Of a stretch of DNA of 64,000 nt, positions 1,098 to 48,170 are shown one piece after another. The notes beneath the pieces are model-generated. The model was not told where the DNA came from. It saw only the letters and a list, made by a program, of their open reading frames with translations, and made no database searches. Source of the DNA: Rhodoferax sp. TH121 (GTDB lineage: Bacteria > Pseudomonadota > Gammaproteobacteria > Burkholderiales > Burkholderiaceae_C). The number at the start of each line of letters is the position of its first letter. The stretch's first letter is position 1. The stretch is from contig NZ_NOXW01000019.1 in assembly GCF_002251855.1 (NCBI RefSeq), forward strand, positions 248,001 to 312,000, given 5' to 3'. Made by a program: the position numbers and the translations under genes.

Positions 1098-2816
1098 TCA
1101 AAACAGGAAGTACCGCTGCGCCAGCGCCAGCTTCACCGCGGGCTCGCAGGTCAGCAGTTGGCCATCGGCGCGCACGGTGTAGGTCTGCGGGTCAATCTCC
1201 ATCACCGGCAGGTAGCTGTTGTGCACCATGTGCTGCTTGCGCACGCCGCGGATGTTCTTCACGGCTGCCACATTCTTGGCCAGGCCAAAGCGCTCTTTCA
1301 CACCCGCGTTGAAACCGGCCTGCGACACAAAGGTGAACGAGCCCTTGTGCAACGCGCCACCGAACGAGCCGAACATGGGGCGGTAGTGCACCGGCTGGGG
1401 CGTGGGGATGGACGCATTCGGGTCGCCCATGGCCGCATGCGCGATGAAGCCGCCCTTCAAGATCAGCGCAGGCTTCACGCCAAAGAAGGCGGGCTTGTAG
1501 ATCACCAAGTCGGCCCACTTGCCCACTTCAATCGATCCCACCTCATGGCTGATGCCATGGGCAATCGCCGGGTTGATGGTGTACTTGGCCACATAACGCT
1601 TGGCGCGGAAGTTGTCGTTGCGCACGCTGTCTTCGGGCAAGCTGCCACGCTGGGCCTTCATCTTGTCGGCGGTTTGCCAGGTGCGGATGATGACTTCGCC
1701 CACGCGGCCCATGGCCTGGCTGTCGCTGCTCATCATGGAGATCGCGCCCATGTCGTGCAGGATGTCCTCAGCTGCAATGGTTTCCTTGCGGATGCGGCTC
1801 TCGGCAAAGGCCAGGTCTTCGGCAATGCCAGCGTCCAGGTGGTGGCACACCATCAGCATGTCCACATGCTCGTCCAGCGTGTTCTGGGTGTAGGGCATGG
1901 TGGGGTTGGTGGAGCTGGGCAAGAAGTTGTCCTGGCCCACCACCCGCAAGATGTCGGGCGCATGGCCGCCGCCCGCACCCTCGGTGTGGAAGGCGCACAG
2001 GCCGCGGCCCTTGGTCGCCGCAATGGTGTCTTCCACAAAGCCCGATTCGTTGAGCGTGTCGGAGTGGATGGCGACCTGCGTGTCGGTCTCGTCGGCCACG
2101 TCCAGGCAGTTGCTGATGGCGCTGGGCGTGGTGCCCCAGTCTTCGTGCAGCTTGAGGCCGATGACACCGGCGTTGATCTGCTCGTGCAGCGCCGCGGGCA
2201 GACTGGCGTTGCCCTTCCCAAGGAAACCGAGGTTCATGGGGAAGGCATCTGCTGCCTGCAGCATGCGCTCGATGTTCCAGGGGCCAGGTGTGCAGGTGGT
2301 GGCAAAGGTGCCGGTGGCCGGGCCGGTGCCGCCACCCAGCATGGTGGTTACGCCGCTGGACAGGGCCTCTTCGATTTGCTGCGGGCAAATGAAGTGAATG
2401 TGGCTGTCGATGCCGCCCGCGGTGACGATGTTGCCCTCGCAGCTGATGATCTCGGTGCCGGGGCCAATGATGATGTCCACACCGGGCTGCGTATCCGGGT
2501 TGCCGGCCTTGCCGATGGCGGCAATGCGGCCGCCTTTCAGGCCAATGTCGGCCTTGACGATGCCCCAGTGGTCCAGGATCAGTGCGTTGGTCAGCACACA
2601 GTCCATGGCGCCTTCGGCCCGCGTTTTCTGCGATTGGGCCATGCCGTCGCGGATGGTTTTGCCACCGCCAAACTTCACCTCTTCACCGTAGGCACCAGCC
2701 GCCAGGGTGTAGTCCTTCTCCACCTCGATGAGCAGGCCGGTGTCGGCCAAGCGCACGCGGTCACCGGTGGTGGGGCCAAAGATTTCCGCGTAGGCGCGGC
2801 GTCCGATAGTAGCCAT
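1098..2816 (-). CDS. ureC: Urease subunit alpha UreC
   Basis: This is the catalytic subunit of cytosolic urease, which hydrolyses urea to ammonia and carbamate. It has 572 residues, close to the family norm of about 570. Nickel ligands His139 and His141 are in [10 protein letters not shown], the lysine to be carbamylated is Lys222 in GLKLHEDWG, the mobile-flap catalytic His325 is in MVCHHLD, and an aspartate ligand lies in SSDSQAMG (about 365). All key residues are intact, so the enzyme should be active. It is separated from ureB by about 130 bp that hold a hairpin-rich dispersed repeat, unusual for normally tight ureBC spacing. Confidence 0.98.
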
Positions 2817-2949: not shown

Positions 2950-3255
2950 TTAAAGATTCCCTTGGGTCAGGCCGCGAAAGCCGTAGACCACGCGGTCGCC
3001 AGCAAAGTCCACCAGCTCCACGGTGCGCTGCTGGCCGGGCTCGAAGCGCACGGCCGAGCCGGAGGCAATGTTCAGGCGCATGCCTTGGGCGGCGGCGCGG
3101 TCAAAGCCCAGCGCGCCGTTGACTTCGGCAAAGTGGTAGTGCGAGCCGACTTGGATGGGGCGGTCTGCAGTGTTTTGCACCACCACGGTCAGTGTGCGGC
3201 GGCCGGTATTGAGGGCGTGGTCGCCCTCGTCGGTGAGGATTTCGCCGGGGGTCAT
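2950..3255 (-). CDS. ureB: Urease subunit beta UreB
   Basis: This is the structural beta subunit of urease (101 residues from the ATG at 3255), assembling with UreA and UreC. It opens [11 protein letters not shown], the usual UreB start, and carries the conserved segments [15 protein letters not shown] and [12 protein letters not shown]. An in-frame upstream start at 3297 would add an unrelated 14-residue leader overlapping hupE/ureJ and is unlikely. Only 10 bp separate it from the upstream hupE/ureJ gene, so the two are cotranscribed. Confidence 0.97.
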
Positions 3256-3265
3256 GGGCTGGCCC

Positions 3266-3859
3266 TCAGACTTGGCTGAACAGGTACACGCCGGCAAAGC
3301 CTAGCGCCGTGCCCAGGCCGCCCAGCACCACACCGCTGCGTGCAGCCAGCTTGCGGCGGATGCCCAAGCCCAGGCCCACACCGCCCAAGTGCAGCACCGC
3401 GGTGGTCAGCAGGAAGCCTGCGGCATAGCCCGCAAAGCCGGTTGCGGGTGTTTCAGCGCCGTGGGCCAGGCCGTGCAGCGATGCGGCGGTGGCAATCAGG
3501 CCCAGGCCGAACGCCTTGGGAATGGGTTTGGCGGCGACGATGAGCATGGCGCCGAAGAGCACGACCGACAGGGCGATGGCGTGTTCCAGATAGGGAAGCG
3601 TCACGCCGCTGGCGCCCAGCACGGCGCTCAGGACCAGCGCCAGCAAGAAGGTGGCCGGACCTTGCCAGGCTTTGTGGGCGGGCAGGGCGCTCACAGACCA
3701 GACGCCCACTGCCACCATGGCCAGCAGGTGATCCAATCCGAAGGGGTGAACCAGTCCCTCCATCAGGCTTTCTGTTCCATGGCCAGTATGGGCGCTAGCC
3801 CCCGTAGTTATTGCGCAAGAAGCTATCAAAAGAAGAGCGTTTTTGGTGAAGGTTCGCAT
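3266..3859 (-). CDS. ureJ: HupE/UreJ family membrane protein (nickel-uptake type)
   Basis: HupE/UreJ proteins are small inner-membrane proteins linked to nickel uptake for urease or hydrogenase. This 197-residue copy has a signal peptide, the family signature [12 protein letters not shown] near residue 38, and about six hydrophobic segments. It lies between ureA and ureB, a common place for ureJ in beta-proteobacteria, so nickel supply to urease is the natural inference. Oddly, the coding sequence for its signal peptide (about residues 7-24) coincides with a copy of the dispersed ~60-bp repeat seen elsewhere in this window. Confidence 0.93.
3789..3840 (+). repeat. Dispersed repeat family 1, copy in the ureJ signal peptide
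   Basis: The plus strand reads GGCGCTAGCCCCCGTAGTTA, then TTGCGCAAGAAGCTATCAAA and AGAAGAGCG. It aligns with the copies at 11050, 29794, 43890, 49106 and 55317. The shared pattern is CTAG-n-CCCGT-n-TACTGCGC-n-AGCAGCT-n-ATAGC. The copy is contained in the N-terminal codons of ureJ and is read in frame on the opposite strand. Confidence 0.75.
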
Positions 3860-3874
3860 GGGTTCTCCGCGGGC

Positions 3875-4177
<303 letters not shown>

Positions 4178-4209
4178 GGCGTTGTTTGGTATTGGGGATT
4201 CAGCACTGT

Positions 4210-4226
4210 AAGCAATCCCTGTGCCT
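4210..4226 (-). promoter_or_regulatory. Candidate sigma-54 (RpoN) promoter of ureA
   Basis: On the minus strand the sequence is AGGCACAGGGATTGCTT, matching TGGCAC-N5-TTGC with GG and GC exactly ten bases apart. A start about 12 bases past the GC would give a leader of roughly 20-25 nt before ureA. Urease operons are often under nitrogen control, which supports the reading; no transcript data are available. Confidence 0.6.
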
Positions 4227-4255
4227 TCCTCCATACGCCAAACGTCCCAGGCTGG

Positions 4256-4271
4256 TGGCATGAAATCTGCA
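4256..4271 (+). promoter_or_regulatory. Candidate sigma-54 promoter of the transporter-kinase gene
   Basis: The plus strand reads TGGCATGAAATCTGCA, again with GG-N10-GC, differing from TGGCACG-N4-TTGCA at two positions. It diverges from the ureA candidate 30 bp away. Immediately downstream (4267-4290) is a cluster of NtrC-like half-sites (TGCACC, TGGTGC, TGCACCA) with non-canonical spacing. If transcription starts near 4282, the kinase start codon must lie further downstream. Confidence 0.5.
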
Positions 4272-4333
4272 CCCTTGGTGCTGTGCACCACGCTCCCCCC
4301 GCCCCCTCCACCGACGAAGCCCCCGCCCAGCGG

Positions 4334-7300
4334 GTGGTGAAAATCCGCCGTGACTACAACAACTGGGTGGCCAGCGAGACCATGGAAGACTACGCCCTGC
4401 GCTTCACGCCGCAGCGCTTTCGCAAGTGGTCCGAATGGCGCGTGGCCAACACCGCCTTCGGCGCGGCCTCTTTCCTCATTCTGGAGGCCGTGGGCGCCAC
4501 GCTGCTGGTGCAGTACGGTTTTGTCAATGCGCTCTGGGCCATCCTGGCCACGGGCCTGGTCATCTTTCTGGCCGGCCTGCCCATCAGTGTCTACGCCGCC
4601 CGCTATGGGGTGGACATGGATCTGCTGACCCGCGGCGCGGGCTTTGGCTACATCGGCTCCACGCTCACTTCGCTCATCTATGCGTCATTCACCTTCATCT
4701 TTTTTGCGCTGGAGGCTGCCGTCATGGCCTATGCGCTGGAGTTGGCGCTGGACATCCCGCCCACCTGGGGCTATCTGATCTGCGCGCTGGTGGTCATTCC
4801 GCTGGTGACCCACGGTGTCTCCACCATCAGCCGTCTGCAGATCTGGACCCAGCCGCTGTGGCTGGTCATGCTGGTGGTGCCGTTTGGCTTTGTTTTGGTG
4901 CGTGATCCGCAGGCGTTTGCCGGCATTACGCACTATGTTGGTGATCTTGGCGGCGCTGGTGGCTTTAGCTTGCACTTGTTTGGTGCCGCTTTAACGGTGG
5001 GCATTGCGCTGATTACCCAAATGGGGGAGCAGGCCGACTACCTGCGCTTCATGCCGGCCCACACCGCAGCCAACCGCGGCCGCTGGTGGCTGGGGGTGTT
5101 GGTGGGCGGGCCGGGCTGGGTGGTGCTGGGGGTCATCAAGATGCTGGGGGGCGCTTTTCTAGCTTACCTGGCGATTCAGCACAGCGTGCCTACTGACCGC
5201 GCGGTAGATCCCAACCAGATGTACCTGGCAGCCTATGAGTATGTGTTTCCCACGCTGGGCTGGGCCGTGGCGGCCACAGCGGTGTTTGTGGTGGTGTCGC
5301 AGCTCAAGATCAATGTGACCAATGCCTACGCAGGTTCGCTGGCCTGGAGCAATTTTTTCTCGCGCCTCACGCACAGCCACCCGGGACGCGTGGTGTGGGT
5401 GCTGTTCAACAGCGTGATCGCCTTCATGCTGATGGAGATGAATGTGTTCCAGGCGCTGGGCGATGTGCTGGGCCTGTACTCCAACATTGCCATCGCCTGG
5501 ATCATGGCGGTGGTGGCCGATCTGGTCATTAACAAACCGCTGGGCCTGTCGCCCAAGGGTATTGAGTTCAAGCGTGCCCATCTCTACGACATCAACCCCG
5601 TGGGCGTGGGCGCGATGGCGCTGGCGTCCCTGCTGTCCATTTCCGCCTACCTGGGGCTGTTTGGGGAGCTGGCCAAGGCCTTCTCGGCGGTAGTTGCCTT
5701 GGTGACGGCCATGGTGGCTTCACCGCTGATTGCATGGCTGACCAAGGGCAAGTACTACCTAGCCCGGCAGTCTGATGTCAGCGCCGCTTTTGGCAGCTAC
5801 CAGCGCTTGCAGTCCAGGCACTGTGTCATTTGCGAGCGCGAGTACGAGGGCCCGGACATGGCCCATTGCCCGGCTTACCAAGGGCCCATCTGCTCCTTGT
5901 GCTGCACGCTGGATGCGCGCTGTGGCGATATGTGCAAGCCGCACGCGAACCTGTCCACCCAGTGGTCGGCCGCGCTGCGCTGGCTGTTGCCCAAACCGGT
6001 GTGGCCGTATCTGGATACGGGCTTGGGCCATTTCATCCTGCTGATGCTCATCATCGTGCCACTGTTGGCCACGGTGTTTGGCATGTTCTATATGCAGGAG
6101 CTGGGTGCCTTAGCAGCGCTCGGCGACGCGCAGAGCGCCATGCAAGCCTCGCTGCGATCAGGCTTTAGCAAGGCGTTTGCGGCGCTCCTGCTGATGTCGG
6201 GCATCGTGGCCTGGTGGCTGGTGCTCGCGCACAAGAGCCGGCAGGTTGCACAGGAAGAATCGAACCGGCAAACCCATTTGCTGATGCGCGAAATCGAGTC
6301 GCACCGCCAGACCGACGAGGCCCTGCAAGATGCCAAGCTGCTGGCCGAGCGTGCCAAGCAGGCCGCTGAGGCCGCCAACCAGGCCAAGAGCCGCTACATC
6401 AGCGCCATCAGCCACGAGCTGCGCACGCCGCTCAACAGCATCCTGGGCTACGCGCAGCTCATGGGCGAAGACGCCTCCATCCCCGCGCACCGCAAGCAGG
6501 CGGTCAGCGTCATCAAGCGCGGTGGCGAGCATTTGCTCTCACTCATCGAGGGCACACTGGACATGGCGCATATCGAGAGCGGCAAGCTCACACTCAATGT
6601 GAAGCCCATGCAGTTCGCCAGCGGCATGCACGAGATGGCCAGCATGTTCGAGCTGCAGGCGGCGGCCAAGGGACTGCAGTTCCATTTTGAGGTGCAAGGA
6701 GCCATCCCCGAATGGGTGCGTGCGGACGAGAAACGTGTGCGCCAGATCTTCTTCAACCTGTTGGGCAATGCCATCAAGTTCACCCAGCAGGGCAGCGTGA
6801 CGCTGCGCCTGCGCTACGCGCGCGAGATGGCGCAGGTGGAGGTGTGCGACACCGGCCCCGGCATGGCGCAGGAAGACCTGGACCGCATCTTCGAACCCTT
6901 CACTCGCGGTGCCAGTGCTGCCGGGGGCTCGGCTGGCGGAACCACAGGCTCGGGCCTGGGCCTGACCATTGCCAAGATGCTCACCGACTTGATGGGCGGC
7001 GAATTGTCGGCATCGTCAGTGCCCGGGGAGGGCTCGGTCTTTCAGGTGCGCCTCTTCCTGCCAGAACTGCACCTGCCTGCCACTGCGCATGACAAGGTCA
7101 GCCCCGCTGCGGCACGCAAGCCGCGCCTTGGGTATGCGGGCGCGCGTCGCAAGGTGCTGGTGGTGGATAACGAAGAAGCTGACCGGGAACTGCTGGTCAG
7201 CCTGCTGGAACCGCTGGGTTTTGAGGTGCGCACCGCCGCCAGTGGCCATGACTGCCTGGACTTGTTGGCTGCGGGTCTGCAGCCCGACGTGGTCTTGCTG

Positions 7301-7798
7301 GACCTGGCCATGCCCGGCATCGACGGCTGGGAAACGCTGCGCCGTATCCGCGCCAACCCGGCCTTGGGCGGCATGCAGCCACAGGTGGCCATTGTGTCGG
7401 CCAATGCCTTTGACCGGGGGCTGGACAACGGCCTAGGCCTCCCGCCCGAAGATTTCATCGTCAAACCCGTGCGCCACACCGAACTGCTGGACTGGCTGGA
7501 GCGCAAGCTCGCGCTGGAATGGGTTGACACCTTGCGTGCCCCCGAGCCAGCGGCCGTGGCAGTGGTCGCGCCTGTCGAACTGGTGTGGCCCGCCGCGGCC
7601 GATTGCCAAGCCTTACTCGACTTGGTGCGCCTGGGCTTTTACCGCGGCATCGTCAACAAGCTCGACGCCATTGCTGCGGCCCAACCGCAGTGCCAGGCGT
7701 TTACCCAGTTCATGGGCGCGCTGGCGCGCCAGTACCAGTTCGAGGCCATGGCCACCCAATTGCAGAAAGCGCTGGATGCAAGCCCCACTTCTCTCTGA
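4334..7798 (+). CDS. NCS1-type transporter fused to hybrid sensor histidine kinase
   Basis: This is a roughly 1154-residue fusion. Residues about 15-470 are a multi-TM nucleobase:cation symporter-1 (purine/cytosine/allantoin) type transporter. About 494-535 is a Cys-rich segment ([20 protein letters not shown]). Two TM helices follow (about 560-630), then a coiled coil, a HisKA box [15 protein letters not shown], a HATPase ([25 protein letters not shown]), and a receiver with the phospho-acceptor in [13 protein letters not shown]. It probably senses a transported or bound nitrogen compound and signals to the overlapping downstream regulator. The start is uncertain: GTG at 4283 or 4334, or ATG at 4382. 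The conserved RRDYNNWV segment argues against 4382, and the promoter candidate argues against 4283. Confidence 0.85.
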
Positions 7799-8759
7799 CT
7801 CCGATGACACCCTGGACCGCGCCAACAGCGATGTGGTGCTCATCGTCGATGACGTGCCCGACAACCTGTCGGTGCTGCACGATGCACTCGATGAATCGGG
7901 CTACACCGTGCTCATCGCCACCTCGGGCGAGGCCGCGTTGCAGCGCGCCACCCAGGGCCTGCCGGATGTCATCTTGCTCGACGCGATGATGCCCGGCATG
8001 GATGGCTTTGAAGTGGCGCGCCGCCTGAAGGCCGCACCCAGCACCACCCATATTCCCATAATCTTCATGACCGGCCTGACCGAGACCGAGTACCTGGTGG
8101 CGGCCTTGGAGAGTGGTGGCGTGGACTATGTGACCAAGCCCATCAAGCCCAAGGAGGTGCTGGCGCGCATGGGCGTGCACCTGGCCGGCGCGCGCGAGCG
8201 GCGCCAGACGCGCAACGCGCTGGACGCCTTTGGTTACGCCACCATCACCGTGCGCGCGGCAGACGGGTGCCTCATGTGGCAAACCCCGCTGGCCCGCGAG
8301 CTGCTGGAGCGCTACTGCGGGACCCAAGCACCCCAGACCCCGCCCGAGGTGCTAGGCTGGTTGCAGGCCTGCTTGCCGACCGTGGCGCGCGGTGCCGAGC
8401 CCGGCAAGCTGAGCCTGGAGCGCGGCCCCAAGCGTCTGACTTTCCGCCTCCACCAGCAGATTGGCGACAGCGACGCCGGTGGCGACTGGCTCATCGTCAT
8501 GCGCGAGGTATCCGACACCGCCGTCATTGAAGCCATGAGCCTGTCTTTCAAGCTCACCGCCAAGGAGGCTGAGGTGCTGTACTGGGTCGTCAAGGGCAAG
8601 ACCAACAAGGACATCGGCGACATCCTGGGTAGCAGTCCCATGACGGTGAAGAAGCACCTGGAGCGCGTGTTCGTAAAGCTGGGCGTAGAGACGCGCACCG
8701 CTGCGGCTGGCATGGCGATGTCACGCATCCGGCAACTGCACCCGCAATTTGAAGGCTAG
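7776..8759 (+). CDS. LuxR-family response regulator (REC-HTH)
   Basis: This 327-residue regulator starts with ATG at 7776, overlapping the kinase end by 23 bp, so the two are translationally coupled partners. Residues about 15-135 are a receiver with acidic pair DD in LIVDDVP, phospho-acceptor Asp in DVILLDAMMPGMDG, Thr in FMTG and Lys in VTKPIKP, all intact. A middle region of about 110 residues has no family I can name. The C-terminus (about 260-315) is a LuxR helix-turn-helix (LTAKEAEVLYWVVKGKTNK, then MTVKKHLERVFVKLGV). Likely targets are nitrogen genes nearby, such as urease; this is inferred from position only. Confidence 0.92.
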   Translation: MQAPLLSDSDDTLDRANSDVVLIVDDVPDNLSVLHDALDESGYTVLIATSGEAALQRATQGLPDVILLDAMMPGMDGFEVARRLKAAPSTTHIPIIFMTGLTETEYLVAALESGGVDYVTKPIKPKEVLARMGVHLAGARERRQTRNALDAFGYATITVRAADGCLMWQTPLARELLERYCGTQAPQTPPEVLGWLQACLPTVARGAEPGKLSLERGPKRLTFRLHQQIGDSDAGGDWLIVMREVSDTAVIEAMSLSFKLTAKEAEVLYWVVKGKTNKDIGDILGSSPMTVKKHLERVFVKLGVETRTAAAGMAMSRIRQLHPQFEG

Positions 8760-18342: not shown

Positions 18343-21300
18343 ATGCGATTGACAGCGCTAAACCACCTGTTTCCTGAGGCTCCAGCCATTCTCGCGCAGG
18401 TGTTGGATTTACAGGCTGGTCCACTGGAGTCGCCTGTGCGTTCTGAAGTGTTCGGTGAGGGGCGTTTCTCGCAGCACGGGCGCAGCCTGGGTATCAGCCA
18501 CCGATACACCAGTGTGGGCCAGCAGCGTGAGAGTTTCACCCCCCGTCTGCGCAATAACATCCAGCGCCTGCGCCTGGCCAACCTTTACATAGGCTCCCAA
18601 GCGCAAACTGGTTATGACATCAGCCCCGCCGCAGAGTGGTTGCTGGAAAACTTTCACTTGCTGGAGGCCCAATTCAAAGAGGTGTATGACGGGCTGCCGC
18701 GCTCGTACTTCCAGTCATTGCCCGTGCTGGTACAAGCGCCTTTGGAAGGTTTGCCCAGGGTGTACGGCGTTGCCTGGGCCTTTGTCGCCCACACCGATGG
18801 CGCCTTTGACGAAGACCTGCTGGTGAGGTTTCTGCGCGCCTACCAGGAGACTTGCGCACTGAACTTGAGCGAGTTGTGGGCGCTGCCAACCACCCTGCGT
18901 GTCGTGCTAATGGAAAACCTGCGCCGCTTGGCTGACCGGGTGGCTGCCAACAAGGCAGCCCGTGAATTGGCCAACATTTGCTGTGACGACCTCGACCGGC
19001 ATGATGTTGCGCAATTGAAGGCCTTGCTGGATCTGCTGCGCCCCCGGGGCGTGGGGGGGGTATTCCTGGCTCAAATGGCCTTGCGGATGCAGGCCACGGT
19101 GTTACACAGCAACACGGTCTACAAAGATTGGTTGTACATCACCATGCCCGATGTGGCTGAGATGTTGGTGCAGCAGCGTGCGGACCAGGCCGCTGACAAC
19201 GTCAGTGTGAGTAATTCTGTCACCTCCTTGCGGGCCATTGGGGATACCGACTGGGCCAGCGTGATTGGCCAGGTCGACATTGCCACCCGCTTGTTGCTGG
19301 AGAGTCCAGCCTTCCAGGCAGAGCATCCACTGACGCGCGAAGACACCCTGCATGCGGTGGAGGCGCTGGCCAAGCGCAGCGCCCGAAGCGAGGCTGAGGT
19401 GGCCAGGGCTTTGCTGGCTGCCATGGCCCAGGCGAACCCGGATCACCTGGCCAGTACGGTACCTGCCTACTGGCTGCAGGGAGAGGGCGCCCCCGCTTTG
19501 CGTCACGCTCTGGGCATGGGCGCGGCATACCAGGTCTATGGGCCGGATCTGATTCGGCGTATGGCGTTGCCGGTCTATCTGCTCACCATCGTCTGCAGCA
19601 CCGCAGGCCTAGTATGGTGGTTGCTGACCAAACATTGGGCACCCGGACTGGTTCCCCGTACCGTTTGGAGCTGGTTGGCCCTCGGGCTTTTGGGCATCTC
19701 AGCGTCAGAGGCTATGGTCGCGCTGGTCAACCGGCTGGTGAGTGAGTCTGTGCGGCCTGCACGGCTACCGCGGTTGGCCTTTTTGGAAGGCATCACCCCG
19801 GCGCACCGGGTGCTGGTGGTGATTCCTGGCATGCTGGTGAACTCGCAAGACATTGACACTTTGGTCCACCGTTTGCAGCTGCACTACCTGGCGAATACCG
19901 AAGAGCAAGCCCAGTTCGCCTTGTTGACCGACTGGCTAGATGCGCCAACCCACACGGTGTCAGGGGATGCCGGTTTGCTGGCGCACGCCCTGCAATGCAT
20001 CGTGGGATTGAACCAGAAGTACCCGCGAGCAGATGGCGAGAGCTGCCCACGCTTTGTGTTGTTACACCGTGAGAGGCGCTACAGTGAGTCCGAGCAGCGC
20101 TGGATTGGCTGGGAACGCAAACGGGGCAAGCTGGAGCAACTGATTGCGGCTCTGGCGCATGGAAACAACGCCGGTTTCGTGGACTTGGGACATGCCAGCT
20201 GCCTGCGAGCTGACACCCGCTATGTGTTGACGCTGGATGCCGATACACAGCTGCCCTCCGGGCGTCTGCGTTCGCTGGTGGGCATTGCCGCCCACCCCAT
20301 CAACCATCCGCGAGTGGACCCCGTTACGCGCACCGTGGTCGCAGGGTACGGCATCTTGCAACCACGGGTTGCCACACCGCTGCCAGCGCACAACATGCGC
20401 ACGCCTTACCACTGGCTGTTCTCCGGGCAGTACGGCATAGATCCCTACAGCGCGGCCAGCTCCGAGGTGTACCAGGACATTTTTGCGCAAGGCACCTTCA
20501 CCGGCAAAGGCTTGTTGCATGTGCAGGCTTTGTACCAGGTGCTGGCCGGGCGCCTTCCCGATGAACGGGTGCTCAGCCATGATCTGCTGGAAGGTGCCTT
20601 GGCGCGCTGTGCTGCCGTGACTGATGTGACCGTGTTGGAAGACGCTCCCCACCACCCGGACGTGGCGTATGCCCGCATCCACCGCTGGACACGCGGGGAT
20701 TGGCAGTTACTCCCCTTCATCCTGCGTGCCAGGCAGTACGGCATTACCGCTATCAATCTCTGGAAGATGCTGGACAACCTGCGCCGCTCGCTGGTGGCTC
20801 CCGCAGCCGTGGGCTTATTGTTGCTGTCGGTTTGCGGTGTGGGGCTGTCACCAGCATGGGCCTTGGGTTTGGTGTTTTCAGCTTATACGGCCGGGCCCCT
20901 CATGGGGGCTTTTGCAGGGCTGTTTCCCAGCCGGCCCCATGTGGCCCTGCGGTACTTTTATGCGCAGGCAGGCACTGAATTGTTGCGCGCCCTGTGCGTG
21001 GGGGCGTGGCAATTGGCACAGCTGCTGCGCCAATCGGCCCTGGGGCTAGATGCCATGGTGCGTGCGATGTACCGCATGCTGGTCAGTGGCCAAGGTTTGC
21101 TGGAGTGGACTACGGCCGCCTCGGCGCAGGCTTCTGCGAAGACCGGTTTGGCACCCTTGTTGCGACAACACTGGCCGGTATCTGCCATGAGTCTGGTGTT
21201 AGCGGCGGTGTTGGTGCGTCAGGTGGAGCACCCGGTGTATGCCTATGCGTTGTTCATGCTCTGGTGGGTATCTCCGGTGGGCACCTGGCTGGTCAGCCGT

Positions 21301-30004: not shown

Positions 30005-31267
30005 ATGCAACGTCGTTTTTCTTTGAAGGCACTGACCGCTGCGGTCGCCTTGACTACCCTGTCCGCACTGCCAGCCTACGCGGCCGACACCATCAAGGTC
30101 GGTATCTTGCACAGCCTGTCCGGCACCATGGCCATTTCAGAGACCGTGTTGAAAGACACCGTGCTGATGGCGATTGACGAAATCAACGCCAAGGGCGGCG
30201 TGTTGGGCAAGAAGCTCGAACCCGTGGTGGTGGACCCCGCTTCCAACTGGCCCCTGTTTGCTGAAAAGACCAAGCAACTGCTGACCCAAGACAAGGTCGA
30301 CGTGATCTTTGGCTGCTGGACGTCTGTGTCCCGCAAGTCCGTGTTGCCGGTGGTGGAAGAGCTCAACGGCCTGCTGTTCTACCCCGTGCAGTACGAAGGT
30401 GAAGAGCTGTCCAAAAACGTGTTCTACACCGGCGCAGCCCCCAACCAGCAAGCCATCCCCGCGGTGGACTACCTGATGAGCAAGGAAGGCGGCGGCGCCA
30501 AGCGTTGGGTACTGCTGGGTACTGACTATGTGTACCCCCGCACCACCAACAAGATCCTGCGCGCCTACCTCAAGAGCAAGGGCGTGAAAGAGTCTGACAT
30601 CGACGAAAAATACACACCGTTTGGCCACAGCGATTACCAAACCATCGTGGCTGACATCAAGAAGTTCAGCGCCGGCGGCAAGACCGCCGTGGTGTCCACC
30701 ATCAACGGTGACTCCAACGTGCCTTTCTACAAGGAACTGGGCAACGCCGGTCTGAAGGCCAAAGACGTGCCTGTGGTGGCCTTCTCCGTGGGTGAGGAAG
30801 AGTTGCGCGGAGTGGACACCAAACCTCTGGTCGGCCACCTGGCTGCCTGGAACTACTTCCAGTCCATTAAGAACCCCGCCAACACCGAGTTCATCAAGAA
30901 ATGGTCTGCCTATGCCAAGGCCAAGGGCATCGCTGGCCACAAGGACAAGCCTTTGACCAACGACCCGATGGAAGCCACTTACATCGGCATCAACATGTGG
31001 AAACAAGCGGTTGAGAAAGCCAAGTCCACCGAAGTTGACAAGGTGATCGCAGCGATGGCCGGCCAGACCTTCAAGGCACCGTCCGGTATCGTTTCCAAGA
31101 TGGACGAAAAGAACCACCACTTGCACAAGAGCGTGTTCATCGGCGAAATCAAGGCCGATGGCCAGTTCAACGTGGTGTGGAAGACACCCGGCCCTGTGAA
31201 GGCCAAGCCATGGTCTCCCTTCATCGAAGGCAACGACAAGAAGCCTGACGAGCCCGCAAAGAAATAA
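30005..31267 (+). CDS. urtA: Urea ABC transporter substrate-binding protein UrtA
   Basis: This is the periplasmic urea receptor of the high-affinity Urt transporter, 420 residues. The signal peptide (MQRRFSLKALTAAV, cleaved near AYA-AD) has a twin-arginine-like start. The mature protein shows DTIKVGILHSLSGTMAISE, FGCWTSVSRKSVLPVVEE and DYVYPRTTNKI, characteristic of UrtA rather than of amino-acid LivJ proteins. First gene of urtABCDE. Confidence 0.97.
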   Translation: MQRRFSLKALTAAVALTTLSALPAYAADTIKVGILHSLSGTMAISETVLKDTVLMAIDEINAKGGVLGKKLEPVVVDPASNWPLFAEKTKQLLTQDKVDVIFGCWTSVSRKSVLPVVEELNGLLFYPVQYEGEELSKNVFYTGAAPNQQAIPAVDYLMSKEGGGAKRWVLLGTDYVYPRTTNKILRAYLKSKGVKESDIDEKYTPFGHSDYQTIVADIKKFSAGGKTAVVSTINGDSNVPFYKELGNAGLKAKDVPVVAFSVGEEELRGVDTKPLVGHLAAWNYFQSIKNPANTEFIKKWSAYAKAKGIAGHKDKPLTNDPMEATYIGINMWKQAVEKAKSTEVDKVIAAMAGQTFKAPSGIVSKMDEKNHHLHKSVFIGEIKADGQFNVVWKTPGPVKAKPWSPFIEGNDKKPDEPAKK

Positions 31268-31361
31268 GGCGAAGGCAGGGAGAGGCTCACTGTGAGCCAG
31301 AGCCGCCACAGCCTTGCAAGGGGCGTGGCGGCTTGTTCCATTCAACCGGAGAGATTGGCGT

Positions 31362-32936
31362 ATGCCAAACAGATTCATCCATCTGCTATTGCTAGCTACG
31401 GTTTTTGTAGCAGGTAGCGCAAACGCGCTCACGGCCCAAGAGGCCAAAGCCATCACATCTGGCGAGAGCGATGCCCGCGTGGCGGCCTTGCAGGCCGCCG
31501 TGGCCAAAGCCGATGAACGCACCGTGCGTTTCATCCAGGCCCTGTCGGACGACAGCGTCAAATTGGTGGGCGATGTGCCCGTGGTGGTGGTGGACGGCAA
31601 GGGTGTTGACCCGGTCACCAATGCCGAGGTGGAGATCCCCGATACCGCTGAAGACGTGATGAACAACAACCGCATGCGCGGCGAGCTGGACAACGCGCTG
31701 GCCGCGGTCAAGCTGTTGTCGGCTGACGTGGCGGTGCGCCGCGCCGCCGTGGCCACGCTGCAGGGCAATGTGGACATGGACAAGCTGCCCCTGCTGGACC
31801 AGGCCCTGGCCGCCGAGACTGTGGCCGATATCAAGAGCCAACTCGCGCTGCTGCGCGCCTCGGCACTGTTGTCCAGCGAAGACCCGGCCAAACGCCTGGA
31901 GGCCGCCACCTTGTTGGGTGACAGTGGCTTGGCAGCCACCAAGACCCTGTTGACGGAGCGCCTGCAGGGCGAAACAGACAGTGCAGTGAAGGTAGCGCTG
32001 CAAAAAAGCCTGAGTGCAGTGGAGAGCCGCCTCGCTTGGGGTGACCGGCTGGGTGCCATGTTCAGTGGCATCAGCCTGGGGTCCATCCTGCTGCTGGTTG
32101 CACTGGGCCTGGCGATTACCTACGGCCTCATGGGCGTGATCAACATGGCCCATGGCGAACTGATGATGATCGGCGCCTACGCCACCTATGTGGTGCAAGG
32201 CCTGTTCCAGAAGTATTTGCCCGGTGCGTTTGACTGGTACTTGCTGGCCTCGGTGCCGGTAGCTTTCATGGCTTCGGCCTTGGTGGGTGCGGCACTGGAG
32301 CGCGGCGTGATCCGTTTCCTCTATGGCCGCCCGTTGGAGACGTTGCTGGCCACCTGGGGCATCAGCCTCATGCTGATGCAACTGGTGCGCACGATTTTTG
32401 GCGCGCAAAACGTGGGCGTGGAAAACCCGAGCTGGATGAGCGGTGGTGTGCAAGTGCTGGGCAATTTGTCCTTGCCCTACAACCGCCTCATCATCGTCGG
32501 CTTTGCGCTGGCGGTGCTGGCGGGCGTGGCCTTTCTGATCAGCAAGACGCGTCTGGGCCTGTTTGTGCGCGGCGTGACGCAGAACCGCCCCATTGCCAGC
32601 TGCATGGGCGTGAATACGGCACGCATTGATACCTACGCGTTTGCACTGGGTAGCGGGATTGCCGGTCTGGCCGGCTGCGCGCTGAGCCAGGTGGGCAACG
32701 TGGGGCCGGACCTGGGCCAGGGCTACATCGTCGATTCCTTCATGGTGGTTGTGCTGGGCGGTGTGGGCCAACTGGCCGGTACCGTGTACGCCGCGCTGGG
32801 CTTGGGCGTGCTCAACAAACTGCTCGAAGGCTGGACTGGCGCTGTGCTGGCCAAGATCGCCGTCCTCGTCTTCATCATCATCTTTATCCAGAAGCGCCCG
32901 CAAGGCATCTTTGCCATGAAGGGCCGAGAAGTATGA
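31362..32936 (+). CDS. urtB: Urea ABC transporter permease UrtB
   Basis: This is one of two membrane subunits of the urea importer, 524 residues. After a signal peptide comes a periplasmic helical domain of about 190 residues typical of UrtB, then eight or so TM helices of the LivH type (ITYGLMGVINMAHGELMMIG). The start at 31362 is preceded by GGAGAG. The signal-peptide core overlaps a sequence resembling the family 1 repeat. Confidence 0.96.
   Translation: MPNRFIHLLLLATVFVAGSANALTAQEAKAITSGESDARVAALQAAVAKADERTVRFIQALSDDSVKLVGDVPVVVVDGKGVDPVTNAEVEIPDTAEDVMNNNRMRGELDNALAAVKLLSADVAVRRAAVATLQGNVDMDKLPLLDQALAAETVADIKSQLALLRASALLSSEDPAKRLEAATLLGDSGLAATKTLLTERLQGETDSAVKVALQKSLSAVESRLAWGDRLGAMFSGISLGSILLLVALGLAITYGLMGVINMAHGELMMIGAYATYVVQGLFQKYLPGAFDWYLLASVPVAFMASALVGAALERGVIRFLYGRPLETLLATWGISLMLMQLVRTIFGAQNVGVENPSWMSGGVQVLGNLSLPYNRLIIVGFALAVLAGVAFLISKTRLGLFVRGVTQNRPIASCMGVNTARIDTYAFALGSGIAGLAGCALSQVGNVGPDLGQGYIVDSFMVVVLGGVGQLAGTVYAALGLGVLNKLLEGWTGAVLAKIAVLVFIIIFIQKRPQGIFAMKGREV
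31384..31424 (-). repeat. Possible fragment of repeat family 1 in the urtB signal peptide
   Basis: The plus strand TTTTTGTAGCAGGTAGCGCA resembles the reverse complement of the repeat core (TGCGC-n-AGCAGCTAC). It is weaker than the other copies and could be convergent signal-peptide composition. Confidence 0.4.
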
Positions 32937-32939
32937 ACA

Positions 32940-33060
32940 CCCCCCGGCTTGCCCACTGCGTGTGGCCGCTTTCCCCCTTGCAGGGGGCAACACCGGCAGC
33001 CCGGCCCAGCCGGTTCTGCGGTGTTTCTGGAACGGGCATCGCTTCGCTTGCCCCTGTCGT
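32940..33060 (+). repeat. Dispersed repeat family 2, copy between urtB and urtC
   Basis: The region has nested inverted repeats: CCCCCTTGCAGGGGGCAA, then GCCCGGCCCAGCCGGTTC. It matches the ureB-ureC gap element closely over about 55 bp and the 38850 element more loosely. It accounts for nearly all of the 144-bp urtB-urtC spacer. Confidence 0.8.
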
Positions 33061-33080
33061 TTGTTCTCGGAGCTTTTGAT

Positions 33081-34187
33081 ATGACTTCCGATTTTGTTTC
33101 GTACGCCAAGAGGCCCTTGCTCAGTGCAGTGGGCTGGGTTTCTTGGCTCGCAGCCTTGGTGCTTCTGTGTGCCCTGGTGCCAGTGCTCAATCTTTGGGTG
33201 CCAGAGGGCAGCGTCTTTCACCTCAGCGACTTCGCAGTCGCGCTGGTGGCCAAGATCATGTGCTACGCCATCTGCGCGCTGTCCATGGGTCTGATCTGGG
33301 GCTACACCGGTATCTTGAGTTTGGGCCATGGCCTGTTCTTCGCGCTGGGGGGCTATGCCATGGGCATGTACCTGATGCGCCAGATTGGGCTGGACGGCAA
33401 CTACAAGAGTGCGCTGCCGGATTTCATGGTGTTTCTGGATTGGAAAGAGCTGCCGTGGCATTGGGCGCTGTCGGACAGCTTTATCGCCACGCTAATCCTC
33501 GTGGTGGCCGTGCCGGGCATCGTGGCCTTTGTGTTTGGCTACTTCGCTTTCCGTTCGCGCATCAAGGGTGTGTACTTCTCCATCATCACCCAGGCCATGA
33601 CCTTTGCGGCCATGCTGCTGTTCTTCCGCAATGAAACCGGCTTTGGCGGCAATAACGGCTTCACCGACTTCAAACGCATCCTGGACATTCCGATTGCCAC
33701 CAGCAGCATGCGCATGACGTTGTTTGTGTTGACGGCGGCCACGCTGCTGGGCTTCTTCCTGCTGTCGCGCTGGCTGGTGGGCAGCAAGTTCGGCCGGGTG
33801 CTGCAAGCGGTGCGCGATGCAGAAACCCGCGTCATGTTCAGCGGCTACAACCCCATCGGCTTCAAGCTGACCATCTGGACCATCTCGGCCATGATGTGTG
33901 GTGTAGCTGGGGCGCTCTATGTCACACAGGTAGGCATCATCAACCCCAGCGAGATGAGCCCGGCCAACAGCATCGAGATCGCCATCTGGGCTGCGGTGGG
34001 CGGGCGTGCCACGCTGATTGGCCCGGTGGTGGGTGCGTTCATCGTCAACGGCGCCAAGAGCTGGCTCACCGTGACCTACCCGGAGTTTTGGCTGTACTTC
34101 TTGGGCGCGCTGTTCATTGGTGTGACCCTGTTCTTGCCTGATGGAGTGGTTGGCTTGATCAAGAAACTGAAGGGAGGCAAGGCATGA
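33081..34187 (+). CDS. urtC: Urea ABC transporter permease UrtC
   Basis: This is the second membrane subunit of the urea importer, 368 residues, about nine or ten TM helices. LivM-type signatures include MCYAICALSMGLIWGYTGIL and LSLGHGLFFALGGYAMGMY, and the cytoplasmic coupling region VLQAVRDAETRVMFSGYN is present. The ATG at 33081 follows the family 2 repeat. It overlaps urtD by 4 bp. Confidence 0.96.
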   Translation: MTSDFVSYAKRPLLSAVGWVSWLAALVLLCALVPVLNLWVPEGSVFHLSDFAVALVAKIMCYAICALSMGLIWGYTGILSLGHGLFFALGGYAMGMYLMRQIGLDGNYKSALPDFMVFLDWKELPWHWALSDSFIATLILVVAVPGIVAFVFGYFAFRSRIKGVYFSIITQAMTFAAMLLFFRNETGFGGNNGFTDFKRILDIPIATSSMRMTLFVLTAATLLGFFLLSRWLVGSKFGRVLQAVRDAETRVMFSGYNPIGFKLTIWTISAMMCGVAGALYVTQVGIINPSEMSPANSIEIAIWAAVGGRATLIGPVVGAFIVNGAKSWLTVTYPEFWLYFLGALFIGVTLFLPDGVVGLIKKLKGGKA

Positions 34188-35065
34188 CCCCCGACCTCCT
34201 CGAACAAGGCGCGCGCCGTGTGCAGGCGCATATGGAGGCGCTGGCCGCTGCCAGGGGCCAAACTGAATCCGGTGGTCGTGCCGCAGGTTTTTCGCGGGTA
34301 GCGAAGGCCGGCGAAGTGGATGTGACCCATGGCCGTATCCTCTACCTGGAAGACGTGAGCGTGAGCTTTGATGGCTTCAAGGCTATCAACAAGCTCAGCC
34401 TGGACATCGCACCCGGCGAGCTGCGCTGCATCATCGGCCCCAACGGCGCAGGCAAAACCACGATGATGGACATCATCACTGGCAAAACCCGGCCCGACGA
34501 AGGCACGGTGTTCTTCGGCAGCACCATCGACCTGCTGCGCTACAAGGAGGCGGAGATCGCCCAGCTGGGCATTGGCCGCAAGTTCCAGAAGCCCACAGTG
34601 TTCGAGCAGCTCACGGTGTTTGAAAACCTGGAGCTCGCCCTGAAGACCAACAAGGGCGTCAAGGCTTCGATGTTCTTCAAGCTCGACTCAGCACAATGCG
34701 ACCGCTTGGCAGAAATTCTGCACACCATCCACTTGGCCGACAGCGTGGGCCGATTGGCGGGAAACCTCAGCCATGGCCAGAAGCAGTGGCTGGAGATCGG
34801 CATGCTGCTCATGCAAGACCCCAAGTTGTTGTTGTTGGACGAACCTGTGGCCGGTATGACGGACGAGGAAACCGAGCGCACCGCCGAGCTGTTCCTTTCG
34901 CTCAAAGGCAAACATTCGCTGATGGTGGTAGAGCACGACATGAGCTTTATCCGCACCATCAGCGATATCGTTACCGTGCTGTGCGATGGCTCGGTGTTGG
35001 CACAAGGGACGCTGGATCAGGTGCAGGCCGATGAGCGGGTGATTGAGGTTTATCTGGGACGCTAA
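34184..35065 (+). CDS. urtD: Urea ABC transporter ATP-binding protein UrtD
   Basis: This is an ABC ATPase of 293 residues with an N-terminal extension of about 50 residues. Walker A is IGPNGAGKTTMMD, the signature is LSHGQKQWLEIGM, and Walker B is LLLLDEPVAGM. It is LivG-like and energises urea import with UrtE. It starts within the urtC stop (ATGA). Confidence 0.96.
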   Translation: MTPDLLEQGARRVQAHMEALAAARGQTESGGRAAGFSRVAKAGEVDVTHGRILYLEDVSVSFDGFKAINKLSLDIAPGELRCIIGPNGAGKTTMMDIITGKTRPDEGTVFFGSTIDLLRYKEAEIAQLGIGRKFQKPTVFEQLTVFENLELALKTNKGVKASMFFKLDSAQCDRLAEILHTIHLADSVGRLAGNLSHGQKQWLEIGMLLMQDPKLLLLDEPVAGMTDEETERTAELFLSLKGKHSLMVVEHDMSFIRTISDIVTVLCDGSVLAQGTLDQVQADERVIEVYLGR

Positions 35066-35067
35066 GC

Positions 35068-35760
35068 ATGCTGAAAATCAATAACGTCAACCAGTACTAC
35101 GGCGGCTCCCACATCCTGCGCGATGTGAGCCTGGAGGCCGAGATCGGCAAAGTCACGGTCATCTTGGGCCGCAATGGCGTGGGCAAGACCACGCTGCTCA
35201 AGTCCATGATGGGCCTGGTGCCCATCAAGTCTGGCAGCATCGAATTCGATGGCAAGCCCATCCATAAACTCACGCCGTACGAACGCGCGCGTATGGGTCT
35301 GGGCTTTGTGCCGCAGGGGCGTGAAATTTTTGCACGCCTGACGGTTGAAGAGAACTTGCGCATGGGCCTGGCGTACAAGAGCGCCGGTACGCCGATCCCG
35401 GCGGAGTTGTTCGAGTTGTTTCCGGTGCTCAAGCAGATGCTGAACCGCCGTGGCGGTGACTTGTCTGGTGGGCAGCAACAGCAACTCGCCATAGCACGAG
35501 CGCTGGCGGCCGGCCCCAAGGTGTTGATTCTGGACGAGCCGACGGAAGGCATCCAGCCCAGCATCATCAAGGACATTGGCCGCGTCATTCGCATGCTGGC
35601 CGACCGGGGCACCATGGCCATTGTGCTGGTGGAGCAGTACTACGACTTTGCCGAAGAACTGGCCGACCAGTATGTGGTGATGGAGCGCGGCGCAGTGCTG
35701 GCGCGCGGCATGGGCCAGAACATGGAGATTGACGGAGTGCGCGGACTGGTGGCGATTTAG
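35068..35760 (+). CDS. urtE: Urea ABC transporter ATP-binding protein UrtE
   Basis: This is the LivF-like second ATPase, 230 residues. Walker A is LGRNGVGKTTLLK, the signature is LSGGQQQQLAIARAL, and Walker B is VLILDEPTEGIQPS. It begins 2 bp after urtD and closes the urt operon. Its 3' end overlaps the convergent REC-TPR gene by 4 bp, so no terminator separates them. Confidence 0.97.
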   Translation: MLKINNVNQYYGGSHILRDVSLEAEIGKVTVILGRNGVGKTTLLKSMMGLVPIKSGSIEFDGKPIHKLTPYERARMGLGFVPQGREIFARLTVEENLRMGLAYKSAGTPIPAELFELFPVLKQMLNRRGGDLSGGQQQQLAIARALAAGPKVLILDEPTEGIQPSIIKDIGRVIRMLADRGTMAIVLVEQYYDFAEELADQYVVMERGAVLARGMGQNMEIDGVRGLVAI

Positions 35761-37505: not shown

Positions 37506-38336
37506 TCACATCGCCCAGATACGAGGGTCGGCCGCTTCCAGCGCCCACTGCTGGGCGCGCCAGGCACGCCGCACGCTGCGCAGCAGCTGCATGGCAGGCT
37601 CCACATGGGGAGCCAAGACCCGCAGCACCACCAGTTGGGGGTGTGGGCTGGTCACGCCTGCGGTGCCCGCCAAGGCATGACCTTGCAGGCAGGCACGGGC
37701 GGTGTCCAGCAGTGACTCTTTGCGCGTGCGCGGTAGTGGGCTGCCGGATGCGAAAAACAGGGTGGCCAGGCAGCGCTGCCCGGCCATGCCAGCGGCGCTG
37801 TTGAGCAGGCGCTGGTCTTGCCCGTCGATCAGTCCCCGCTCCAGCCAGACACCGGGAATCTCGATGTGTTGTTCCAGCTGGCCCTGGGTGAAGGGCAAGT
37901 GGGCCATGGGCAGGCCCAGCACCGTGGTGTCCCAGCCCAGGCATTCCGCGCCGGACTCCAGCGCCAGACGCAGCTGGTTGCGGGCCTGGCAGGCGTCGTA
38001 ACAAATGGCTTCCAGTGGCAACCACTCCAGGCGGGCGCCAGCCTCCAGGCTCAGGCGCGTGGTCTGGGTGGCCCAGGGGCCTTCGGATCGGTAAAAGCGC
38101 GTGGCGCCGGGTGTGGTGATGAGGCCGTGCGCACCGGCTCCCACGTGTACCCGCAGGTCCAGGGTGTCGCCGCCCACCAGGCCACCGGGCGGATGCACCA
38201 GCACGTTGTGGCAAATGCCATCGCCCTCGGGGTACAGGCTTTGCAAGATGCGCAGTGGGCCGCTGTGCTGGTGGCGTGCCACGCAGCGGTCGGTTTCCAG
38301 GCGGTAGTTCAGGTCTAACTGGGCGTGCCACACCAT
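37506..38336 (-). CDS. ureD: Urease accessory protein UreD (UreH)
   Basis: UreD binds apo-urease and, with UreF and UreG, helps carbamylate the active-site lysine and insert nickel. This 276-residue protein has GDTLDLRVHVGAGAHGLITT, PGATRFYRS and CYDACQARNQL-type segments typical of UreD. It lies about 33 kb from ureABC, as the last gene of the purine/ureide run, 27 bp after a deaminase. No other ureD is in the window. Confidence 0.95.
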   Translation of the reverse strand: MVWHAQLDLNYRLETDRCVARHQHSGPLRILQSLYPEGDGICHNVLVHPPGGLVGGDTLDLRVHVGAGAHGLITTPGATRFYRSEGPWATQTTRLSLEAGARLEWLPLEAICYDACQARNQLRLALESGAECLGWDTTVLGLPMAHLPFTQGQLEQHIEIPGVWLERGLIDGQDQRLLNSAAGMAGQRCLATLFFASGSPLPRTRKESLLDTARACLQGHALAGTAGVTSPHPQLVVLRVLAPHVEPAMQLLRSVRRAWRAQQWALEAADPRIWAM

Positions 38337-41635: not shown

Positions 41636-42868
41636 TCAGGGCCGCAGCAAATCCAGCAGGCTGCGCGCCACCACCTTGGTCGCCTTGCGCAAATCGTCCA
41701 GGCTCACGCGTTCATCGGCCCGCTTGGCGTGCGACTCCAGCACAGTGCGGGGGCCGGCGCCGTAGATGACGCCGGGAATGCCGCGCTCGGCGAACAGGCG
41801 CACATCGGTGTAGAGCGGCGTGCCCATGGCGGGGATGGGTTCGCCAAACAAGGCTTCGCCATGTTTTTGCAGCGCATCCACCAGTGGTTTGTTACCTGCC
41901 AGGGGGCGCATGGCGTTGGCCAGTAGCAAGCGCTTGATGTCTACCGTAATTCCGGGCACTTGGGCCGCGGCATCCGCAATCACTTTGCGGATAGAGGCTT
42001 CCACCTCGGTGGGGTTTTCCTCGGGGATCATGCGGCGGTCCAGCTTGAAGACCACTTTGCCGGGGACCACATTGGTGTTGGTGCCGCCTTCGATGCGGCC
42101 CACGTTCAGGTAGGGGTGGTTGATGCCGTCTACATCTGAAGTCACTTGTTTGTACAGCGTGTTCTGGGCGTACAGCGCGTTGAGAATGTGCACCGCGCCT
42201 TGCAGGGCGTCCACACCACTCTCGGGAATGGCCGCGTGGGCCATCTTGCCGTGCACGGTCACTTCCATTTGCAGGCAGCCGTTGTGCGCGGTAATCACTT
42301 GGTACGAAAAACCGGCCGCCAACAGCAGGTCGGGCTTGGTGATGCCCTTTTCCAGCAACCAGCCGGGGCCGAGTTCGCCGCCAAATTCTTCGTCGTAGGT
42401 GAACAGCAACTCCACACCACCCTTGAGCGGCAGGCCCAGCGATTCGAGCGCGCGCACGGCGAAGGTGTAGCTGGAGAAATCGCTTTTGCTGACCGCAGTG
42501 GCGCGGCCGTACATATTGCCGTCGGCAATCTCGCCGCCGTAGGGGTCATGCGTCCAGCCTTCGCCGGGGGGCACCACGTCACCGTGGGCGTTCAAGCCGA
42601 TGGTGAGCCCGCCTGCAGCGTAGGCGCGGCGCACCACCAGGTTGGTGATGCTCTGCATGCCGGCGGCCTGCACCTCGCTGGCGGGCACGCTGTGTTTGTC
42701 CGCCTGCAGGCCCATGGCGGCCAGCAGCTCGGCGGTGCGGTCTGCGTGGGGCGCGTTGTTGCCGGGCGGGGTGTCGGTGGGCACGCGCACCAGTTCTTGC
42801 AGAAAGCGCACTTGCTCGTCAAAGTGCGCGTCAATCCAGGCGTCGAGTTGTTCGTAGGGGGTGGTCAT
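41636..42868 (-). CDS. M20-family amidohydrolase/deacetylase
   Basis: This is a 410-residue metallohydrolase of the ArgE/DapE/CPG2 fold. Metal and catalytic residues are visible in GLNAHGDVVPPG, YDEEFGGELGPG and the C-terminal SHAKRADERV. It starts at the ATG at 42868, overlapping the upstream gene by 4 bp. In this operon it may hydrolyse a ureide or N-carbamoyl compound, but the family is broad and the substrate is not readable. Confidence 0.9.
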   Translation of the reverse strand: MTTPYEQLDAWIDAHFDEQVRFLQELVRVPTDTPPGNNAPHADRTAELLAAMGLQADKHSVPASEVQAAGMQSITNLVVRRAYAAGGLTIGLNAHGDVVPPGEGWTHDPYGGEIADGNMYGRATAVSKSDFSSYTFAVRALESLGLPLKGGVELLFTYDEEFGGELGPGWLLEKGITKPDLLLAAGFSYQVITAHNGCLQMEVTVHGKMAHAAIPESGVDALQGAVHILNALYAQNTLYKQVTSDVDGINHPYLNVGRIEGGTNTNVVPGKVVFKLDRRMIPEENPTEVEASIRKVIADAAAQVPGITVDIKRLLLANAMRPLAGNKPLVDALQKHGEALFGEPIPAMGTPLYTDVRLFAERGIPGVIYGAGPRTVLESHAKRADERVSLDDLRKATKVVARSLLDLLRP

Positions 42869-44694: not shown

Positions 44695-44697
44695 GGC

Positions 44698-46286: not shown

Positions 46287-46311
46287 GCGGCCATGATACC
46301 GACAATGCTCA

Positions 46312-46327
46312 AAAGTGTATACACTTT
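46312..46327. promoter_or_regulatory. Palindromic GntR-type operator between gntR and hiuH
   Basis: AAAGTGTATACACTTT is a perfect 16-bp palindrome with the TGTATACA core seen in FCD-type GntR operators. It sits 26 bp from each flanking start (46286 and 46354) and could control both directions. Confidence 0.75.
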
Positions 46328-48146: not shown

Positions 48147-48170
48147 CCTGAATCCTAGGAGAACCACCGC

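Follow-up and report, generated by a model that had tools for sequence, protein, structure and literature searches.

We analyzed a hybrid sensor kinase gene, and the response regulator gene that overlaps it, in a stretch of 64,000 nucleotides from Rhodoferax sp. TH121 (contig NZ_NOXW01000019.1, positions 248,001 to 312,000; hereafter, the window), where the pair lies beside urease genes (Table 1). Our results make it fairly probable that the kinase, through an input domain with the NCS1 transporter fold, detects urea, and in sister branches short amides of the formamide type, and that it drives the LuxR-type regulator and so switches on the urease (ure) and urea transporter (urt) genes. We infer the ligand, the direction of signalling and the targets; the CodB-like fold of the input domain is a model prediction. 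With this family, which is widespread, another transporter fold joins the transporter-kinase transceptors. If the proposed function is true, many urease/urt and formamidase operons gain a candidate regulator in such pairs, and the family offers a natural experiment, with one receptor and two regulons, on the change from transporter to receptor. We know of few membrane receptors in bacteria that respond to external urea or formamide.

Domain architecture of the kinase and its regulator

The open frame of the kinase extends over 3389-7798. Because homologues align from the codon at 4337 onwards, the start is probably GTG at 4334 or 4337, giving a protein of about 1153-1154 residues. Pfam places HisKA at residues 684-750, HATPase_c at 798-909 and Response_reg at 941-1054 (numbering from 4334), and His693 is invariant across 52 aligned rows. 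The protein thus has the full set expected of a hybrid histidine kinase: HisKA, HATPase_c, and a receiver, with the histidine and the aspartate in place. A sequence-only reading of the window had described a single polypeptide joining an NCS1-type membrane domain, a cysteine-rich segment, two further helices, a HisKA/HATPase core and a receiver, and this description is borne out by Pfam, by the predicted fold and by conservation. Among the Pfam matches of the kinase there is no SSS domain (SSF, PF00474), in line with the contrast previously drawn to CbrA, a fusion of the SSS type. Neither an ammonium transporter domain nor STAC is among these matches, the presence of a STAC model in the library being unchecked.

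The regulator matches Response_reg and GerE, the combination of receiver (REC) and DNA-binding domain typical of LuxR/NarL-type regulators, and the receiver aspartates of both proteins are present. Its ATG lies at 7776 and the kinase stop codon ends at 7798, so that the genes overlap by 23 bp (7776-7798), exactly as first reported. Pfam found no HPt domain in either protein. We compared the window with 80 named homologous loci, which are the best scoring of 576 and not a random draw. A regulator directly follows the kinase in 76 of these 81 loci. Of the other five, two are cut, and in three (L059, L077 and L109) the motif search found none right after the kinase, though tblastn places one there in L109.

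Distribution of the family

The database search scored 7999 candidates, all with E <= 0.001, and the best 120 listed, at 76-99% identity, likewise have HisKA, HATPase_c and Response_reg; the architecture is therefore not a chance product. The sensor half has no Pfam domain in these best 120 homologues listed. Many of the named homologues are called simply "ATP-binding protein" at NCBI, and some of the names given by JGI include "purine-cytosine permease-like protein".

The domain was found in 20 of 61 genomes (from the same organism, genus and order). A search of 300 genomes of the order matched 55; leaving out G063, G184, G244 and G316, which had weak matches only, and weak second matches, we retained 53 strong loci from 51 genomes. 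With the 70-residue cysteine module alone as the query, 55 of 398 genomes of the phylum gave a match, three of them weak. In all 40 loci fetched from outside the order, the NCS1-like domain adjoins the cysteine module. These 40 belong to the 134 loci compared below, and having been found with the module as query, they were selected for its presence and not for that of the transporter domain. Three loci (L118, L183 and L191) have shorter kinases, with open frames of about 890-950 codons, still near fmdA; L183 and L191 gave no match over half of the C-terminal query, and the response regulator gene adjoining the kinase in L118 looks different by eye.

Urea and amide gene contexts

Urease adjacency, the starting point of the sequence-only reading, holds in the window: the gamma subunit, HupE/UreJ and the alpha subunit were identified by Pfam and ureB by homology, all on the minus strand. 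The positional link recurs across Pseudomonadota, and is much stronger than could be seen from the window. Of the 80 named loci, 63 have urease or UrtA genes nearby (UreC 48, UreA 53, UrtA 29; regulator 76), usually with a divergent ureABC upstream, then the kinase and regulator, then urt downstream. This order is altered in Methylophilaceae (L102, L109) and Oxalobacteraceae (L098, L103). Such variation among lineages suggests that linkage to the urea genes formed, or was retained, more than once. Within 20 kb of the 53 same-order loci we found ureC in 27, UrtA-family genes in at least 42, and either in at least 46; here as elsewhere loci are related and counts not independent. At the level of genomes, compared by Fisher test uncorrected for relatedness, ureC is present in 48/51 kinase genomes and 73/249 other genomes of the order, and the UrtA family (E <= 1e-100, some below the NCBIfam cut-off) in 48/51 and 71/249, respectively.

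There is also a second context, in which the kinase lies with formamidase or amidase genes and a second UrtABCDE set. Within about 20 kb of the 40 out-of-order loci there were UrtA-family genes in 34, FmdA in 26, aliphatic amidase in 16 and ure genes in 5. All but two have ure, UrtA-family or FmdA genes (38/40); of the two, L185 is truncated where its contig ends and L194 lies on a contig of 4.8 kb. In the amide locus L114, FmdA, the aliphatic amidase and UrtA-E all score above the NCBIfam cut-offs, as does FmdA in L118. This amide branch (fmdA, amiE and the second UrtABCDE) is the part missing from the sequence-only picture.

Labelled by context, with identity thresholds of our choosing and from 64 kb in the window and at most about 22 kb elsewhere, the 134 loci comprise 75 urea, 35 amide, no mixed and 24 neither. 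Homologues unlinked to nitrogen genes had been named beforehand as the outcome that would count against the proposed link: 110 of 134 loci are linked, and the 24 are not accounted for by either context. A FastTree tree of the 110 labelled rows requires about four context switches; its support values are local only, and L165 and L121 carry a long-branch warning. Overall, the gene context supports the earlier suggestion that the kinase senses a compound related to urea.

The 24 loci with neither context include L185 and L194, already mentioned; L116, L117 and L125, which form a separate long branch; L119; and 18 others, most of them with complete flanks to either side, and at least L066, L073 and L094 without the upstream one. 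The long branch, with no urea or amide genes nearby, may have another ligand; the L117 kinase adjoins a nicotinamide-nucleotide adenylyltransferase gene. L119 has a urea-branch kinase beside genes that resemble nifHDK by eye, with ureC and UrtA on another contig.

Predicted fold and mapped pocket of the transporter domain

The predicted structure of the input domain has the NCS1 fold of CodB and Mhp1 and spans nearly all of CodB. In hhalign comparisons, the domain profile matched 30 standalone permeases at 99% (E 5.9e-18, 426 columns), CodB plus Mhp1 at 90% (E 1.6e-6, 207 columns), and CodB alone at 36% (152 columns). Sequence searches of PDB gave no match with the single domain sequence or with a standalone relative, and with the profile returned kinase parts only. 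The domain had been read as a complete NCS1 transporter: predicted fold and profile agree, Pfam does not. Because PF02133, the Pfam model of the family, has no match in the kinase protein (nor anywhere in the genome), we call the domain NCS1-like.

Pocket residues were assigned by alignment to CodB and Mhp1, whose substrate and sodium sites are described in PMC9379551 and PMC4195764, first in 27 kinase rows and then in the 110 context-labelled rows. The position of the tryptophan in transmembrane helix 3 (TM3) is Phe in 23/27 and Leu in 4/27 kinase rows (F122 here; Phe in 100/110 labelled rows). The position of the Mhp1 substrate ligand Gln121 is Glu in 27/27 (E126; 109/110), and that of Mhp1 Asn318 is Asn in 27/27 (N329). 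At the TM6 stacking position, where the register is uncertain, we found Gly, Ala, Ser, Ile or Leu but no aromatic residue, and many amide-branch rows have a Phe one residue further on. By alignment, then, the aromatic sandwich of NCS1 transporters (TM3 Trp with TM6 Phe/Trp) is absent. The Na2 site with its two TM8 hydroxyls is likewise not present: the positions of Mhp1 Ser312 and Thr313 read Lys-Ile/Val, the lysine (K324) being found in 27/27 kinase rows and 110/110 labelled rows. Against CodB the automatic alignment is gapped at this position, and an ungapped reading gives the same lysine. K324, N326, N329, Q228, E231 and W388 occur in all 110 urea and amide rows.

Seven columns passed a loose test for residues that shift with the switches from amide to urea. 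Position 291 is Asp in 70/75 urea rows and Glu in 29/35 amide rows, and is the sole column consistent in all four urea groups; column 389, in a loosely drawn pocket set, has Leu in each small urea group (three in all) and Met or Ile in the large one.

Searching with the kinase domain also revealed standalone NCS1-like permeases (L127, L128, L129, L130 and L131). The L131 permease lies beside genes of the HyuA/HyuB hydantoinase/oxoprolinase type (by Pfam), as do those of L127, L128 and L130 by eye; that of L129 lies beside LamB/YcsF and biotin-carboxylase genes (Pfam). Going by these neighbourhoods, the standalone relatives found so far appear to keep company with cyclic-amide genes. PF02133 is carried by 19 of the best 120 listed relatives of a standalone permease.

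What the input domain may sense

The simplest reading of these alignments is a pocket for the H2N-C=O group, which urea and formamide share. Several observations weigh against urea and short amides as the signal. The mapped pocket residues are identical across the urea and amide branches, which may mean either one pocket for all small amides or a common signal such as ammonium. The rate at which the gene context would arise by chance is a hand estimate only, of about 1-2 in 53. To these must be added the 24 loci with neither context and the absent PF02133 match. In the window, urtA lies 25.7 kb from the kinase gene, and a search for gapped 5+5 dyads in the upstream regions of ureA and urtA (60 and 42 sequences) revealed no common operator.

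A first alternative is that the domain is a working importer of urea or amides whose flux the kinase reads, a true dual transceptor. CbrA, a kinase with an SSS domain, transports histidine (PMC7918813), and the extent of the predicted fold would suit a transporter. Against this stand the lysine in place of the Na2 hydroxyl and the dedicated Urt-type ABC transporter often encoded close by. The standalone permeases have Arg at the same position in 30/30 rows, so transport with another ion could still occur, and we regard a working importer as unlikely.

A second alternative, that ammonium or the general nitrogen status is what the NCS1-like domain detects and that the system lowers expression of these genes when ammonium is plentiful, seems rather unlikely. 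Urease, formamidase and amidase all yield ammonium, the shared pocket and the conserved acidic residues E126 and E231 would fit it, and a kinase with an ammonium transporter domain of another family, Ks-Amt5, exists (PMC5764959). Yet members of the family cluster with particular sets of genes for urea or amides (neighbourhoods were not searched for amt or glnA), and the ligands of NCS1 transporters include amide-bearing rings (PMC9379551, PMC4195764).

The domain could also be a true sensor of a nucleobase, a hydantoin or allantoin, with the urea genes controlled as urea ends purine breakdown; a purine or allantoin signal was among the suggestions of the sequence-only reading. Cytosine and hydantoins are the substrates of CodB and Mhp1, the standalone relatives lie beside hydantoinase-type genes, some being named allantoin permease, and a purine-breakdown cluster is present in the window at about 41.6-49.4 kb. 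However, no purine gene was prominent by eye among the clustered neighbours (no family search was made), and the formamide- and acetamide-type compounds of the amide branch are not purine-derived. The aligned TM6 position also lacks its aromatic residue, though change there had little effect on uptake by Mhp1 and, in CodB, a milder effect than change of Trp108 (PMC9379551, PMC4195764). A purine-type signal is thus disfavoured, and we consider it quite improbable.

The cysteine module

The eight cysteines are spaced C-x2-C-x11-C-x7-C-x2-CC-x5-C-x3-C. All are retained in 80/80 named loci and in 134/134 loci overall, which substantiates the cysteine-rich segment of at least eight residues noted from the window. 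They are complete in 35/35 amide-branch loci, which have no urease nearby, several of those genomes having ureC elsewhere. Structural matching of the module gave no significant match (families not listed are outside its scope), and the best matches include many zinc fingers. These weakly suggest a structural zinc module, for which a cross-brace two-zinc finger with eight ligands, as in RING, PHD and FYVE, is a possible model. Urease requires nickel; sensing of nickel by the cysteines is nevertheless disfavoured, because the eight are equally present in the amide-branch loci. That the module is itself the sensor, of nickel, zinc or redox state, with the transporter domain a mere membrane anchor, is very unlikely, since against its invariant cysteines and the nickel requirement of urease stand its equal conservation in the formamidase/amidase branch and the high conservation of the transporter domain, mapped pocket included.

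Proposed signalling path

For the urea and short-amide receptor that we favour, a small amide would bind between the bundle and hash domains and shift their helices. Na+-driven transport would be absent or altered, and the NCS1-like domain would for that reason be chiefly a receptor. The eight-cysteine module, possibly a cytoplasmic two-zinc finger, together with the helix pair would relay the movement to the kinase. The phosphoryl group of His693 would reach the regulator at Asp69 either directly or via the internal receiver, HPt domains being absent from the Pfam matches of both proteins. The regulator would then activate ure and urt and, in the sister branches, fmdA, amiE and the second UrtABCDE set. 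A wider proposal, which we hold tentatively as possible and short of probable, is that of a Pseudomonadota-wide set of transceptor kinases with an NCS1-like urea/short-amide receptor, a lysine for the sodium site and two-zinc coupling, in which a switch of regulon, from formamide/acetamide to urea, took place independently in about four lineages with the pocket unchanged.

Relation to known systems

The closest analogues in design are the SLC5(SSS)-STAC kinases CbrA, CrbS (MxtR) and RpuS, which also fuse a transporter domain of the LeuT fold to a histidine kinase, some of them hybrid, have a response regulator partner and act in nutrient sensing (PMC13022988, PMC7918813); a 2026 preprint describes CbrA as a rare transporter-kinase "transceptor" (PMC13022988). 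They differ in their SSS/SLC5 domain and STAC linker; the kinase described here has a domain nearest to CodB/Mhp1, an eight-cysteine module with two hydrophobic helices as its linker, and urea and amide genes as neighbours. Ks-Amt5 likewise has its kinase fused to the domain of a nutrient transporter that has turned into a receptor, with reported loss of transport; in contrast to the NCS1-like hybrid kinase, it has the Amt/Rh fold, is trimeric and has no STAC, PAS or HAMP (PMC5764959). With CodB and Mhp1 themselves the kinase shares the predicted fold and, in part, the TM3 aromatic and Asn/Gln-type ligand positions; it differs in the kinase fusion, the missing aligned TM6 aromatic, the lysine at the Na2 hydroxyl and the unmatched PF02133.

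In Ectopseudomonas guguanensis G3, locus tags of a hybrid histidine kinase and a LuxR regulator adjoin a second urtABCDE, with an fmdA tag on the other side (PMC13296017); this 2026 genome paper shows the pair in a map only, and the excerpt consulted names no transporter domain or family for it. A urtABCDE-amiE-fmdA-fmdB cluster has been tied to a formamide-growing strain, the excerpt naming no kinase (PMC13209695). The excerpt of PMC11109136 does not mention NCS1. Among the top-ranked listings from the open-licence PMC literature we found no description of an NCS1-type kinase fusion, which is not proof of absence.

Other genes in the window

Table 1. Kinase, regulator and urea-related features of the window (positions in the window)
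Feature	Positions	Strand	Basis or remark
ureC (urease alpha)	1098..2816	-	PF00449; TIGR01792 above cut-off
ureB (urease beta)	2950..3297	-	homology
hupE/ureJ	3266..3859	-	PF04955
ureA (urease gamma)	3875..4177	-	PF00547
Divergent intergenic region, ureA to kinase gene	4178..4333	.	
Hybrid sensor kinase gene (NCS1-like domain, Cys module, two hydrophobic helices, HisKA, HATPase, REC)	4334..7798	+	
NCS1-like transporter-fold domain	4379..5749	+	residues 15-471 counted from codon at 4337
Eight-cysteine module, C496 to C533, possibly two-zinc finger	5822..5935	+	
Two more hydrophobic helices, joining Cys module to kinase	6020..6226	+	sequence; helical in model
HisKA; phospho-acceptor His693, codon 6413-6415	6383..6583	+	Pfam
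HATPase_c	6725..7060	+	Pfam
Receiver domain of kinase; Asp codon 7301-7303	7154..7495	+	Pfam
Response regulator, REC and LuxR-type (GerE) DNA-binding domain	7776..8759	+	open reading frame; Pfam
urtABCDE, urea ATP-binding cassette (ABC) transporter	30023..35760	+	same strand as kinase, ~25.7 kb away
ureD	37506..38336	-	PF01774

UrtA and UrtD of the window score above the NCBIfam cut-offs, UrtE was assigned by homology, and urtB and urtC by position and by sequence inspected by eye. A candidate for an operator shared by the ureA and urtA upstream regions was set aside as noise, the best dyad occurring in 7% of sequences and in 3% after one base shuffle. Within the urease operon, a GNAT acetyltransferase gene (634-1101, by Pfam) overlaps ureC by 4 bp; a GNAT match was found in 6/80 named loci. 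The frame next after it, cut by the window start, resembles ureE by eye.

The purine-breakdown cluster (41636-49403) includes, by NCBIfam, an OHCU decarboxylase domain fused to an allantoate-amidohydrolase-type domain (42865-44694), the allantoinase PuuE (44698-45648), hydroxyisourate hydrolase (46354-46707) and XdhC (47238-48146). A membrane protein at 48171, with no NCBIfam match, has the look of a urate hydroxylase by eye. Finally, a frame of 2718 codons at 18448-26604 resembles, by eye, giant proteins of the cyclic beta-glucan synthase type.

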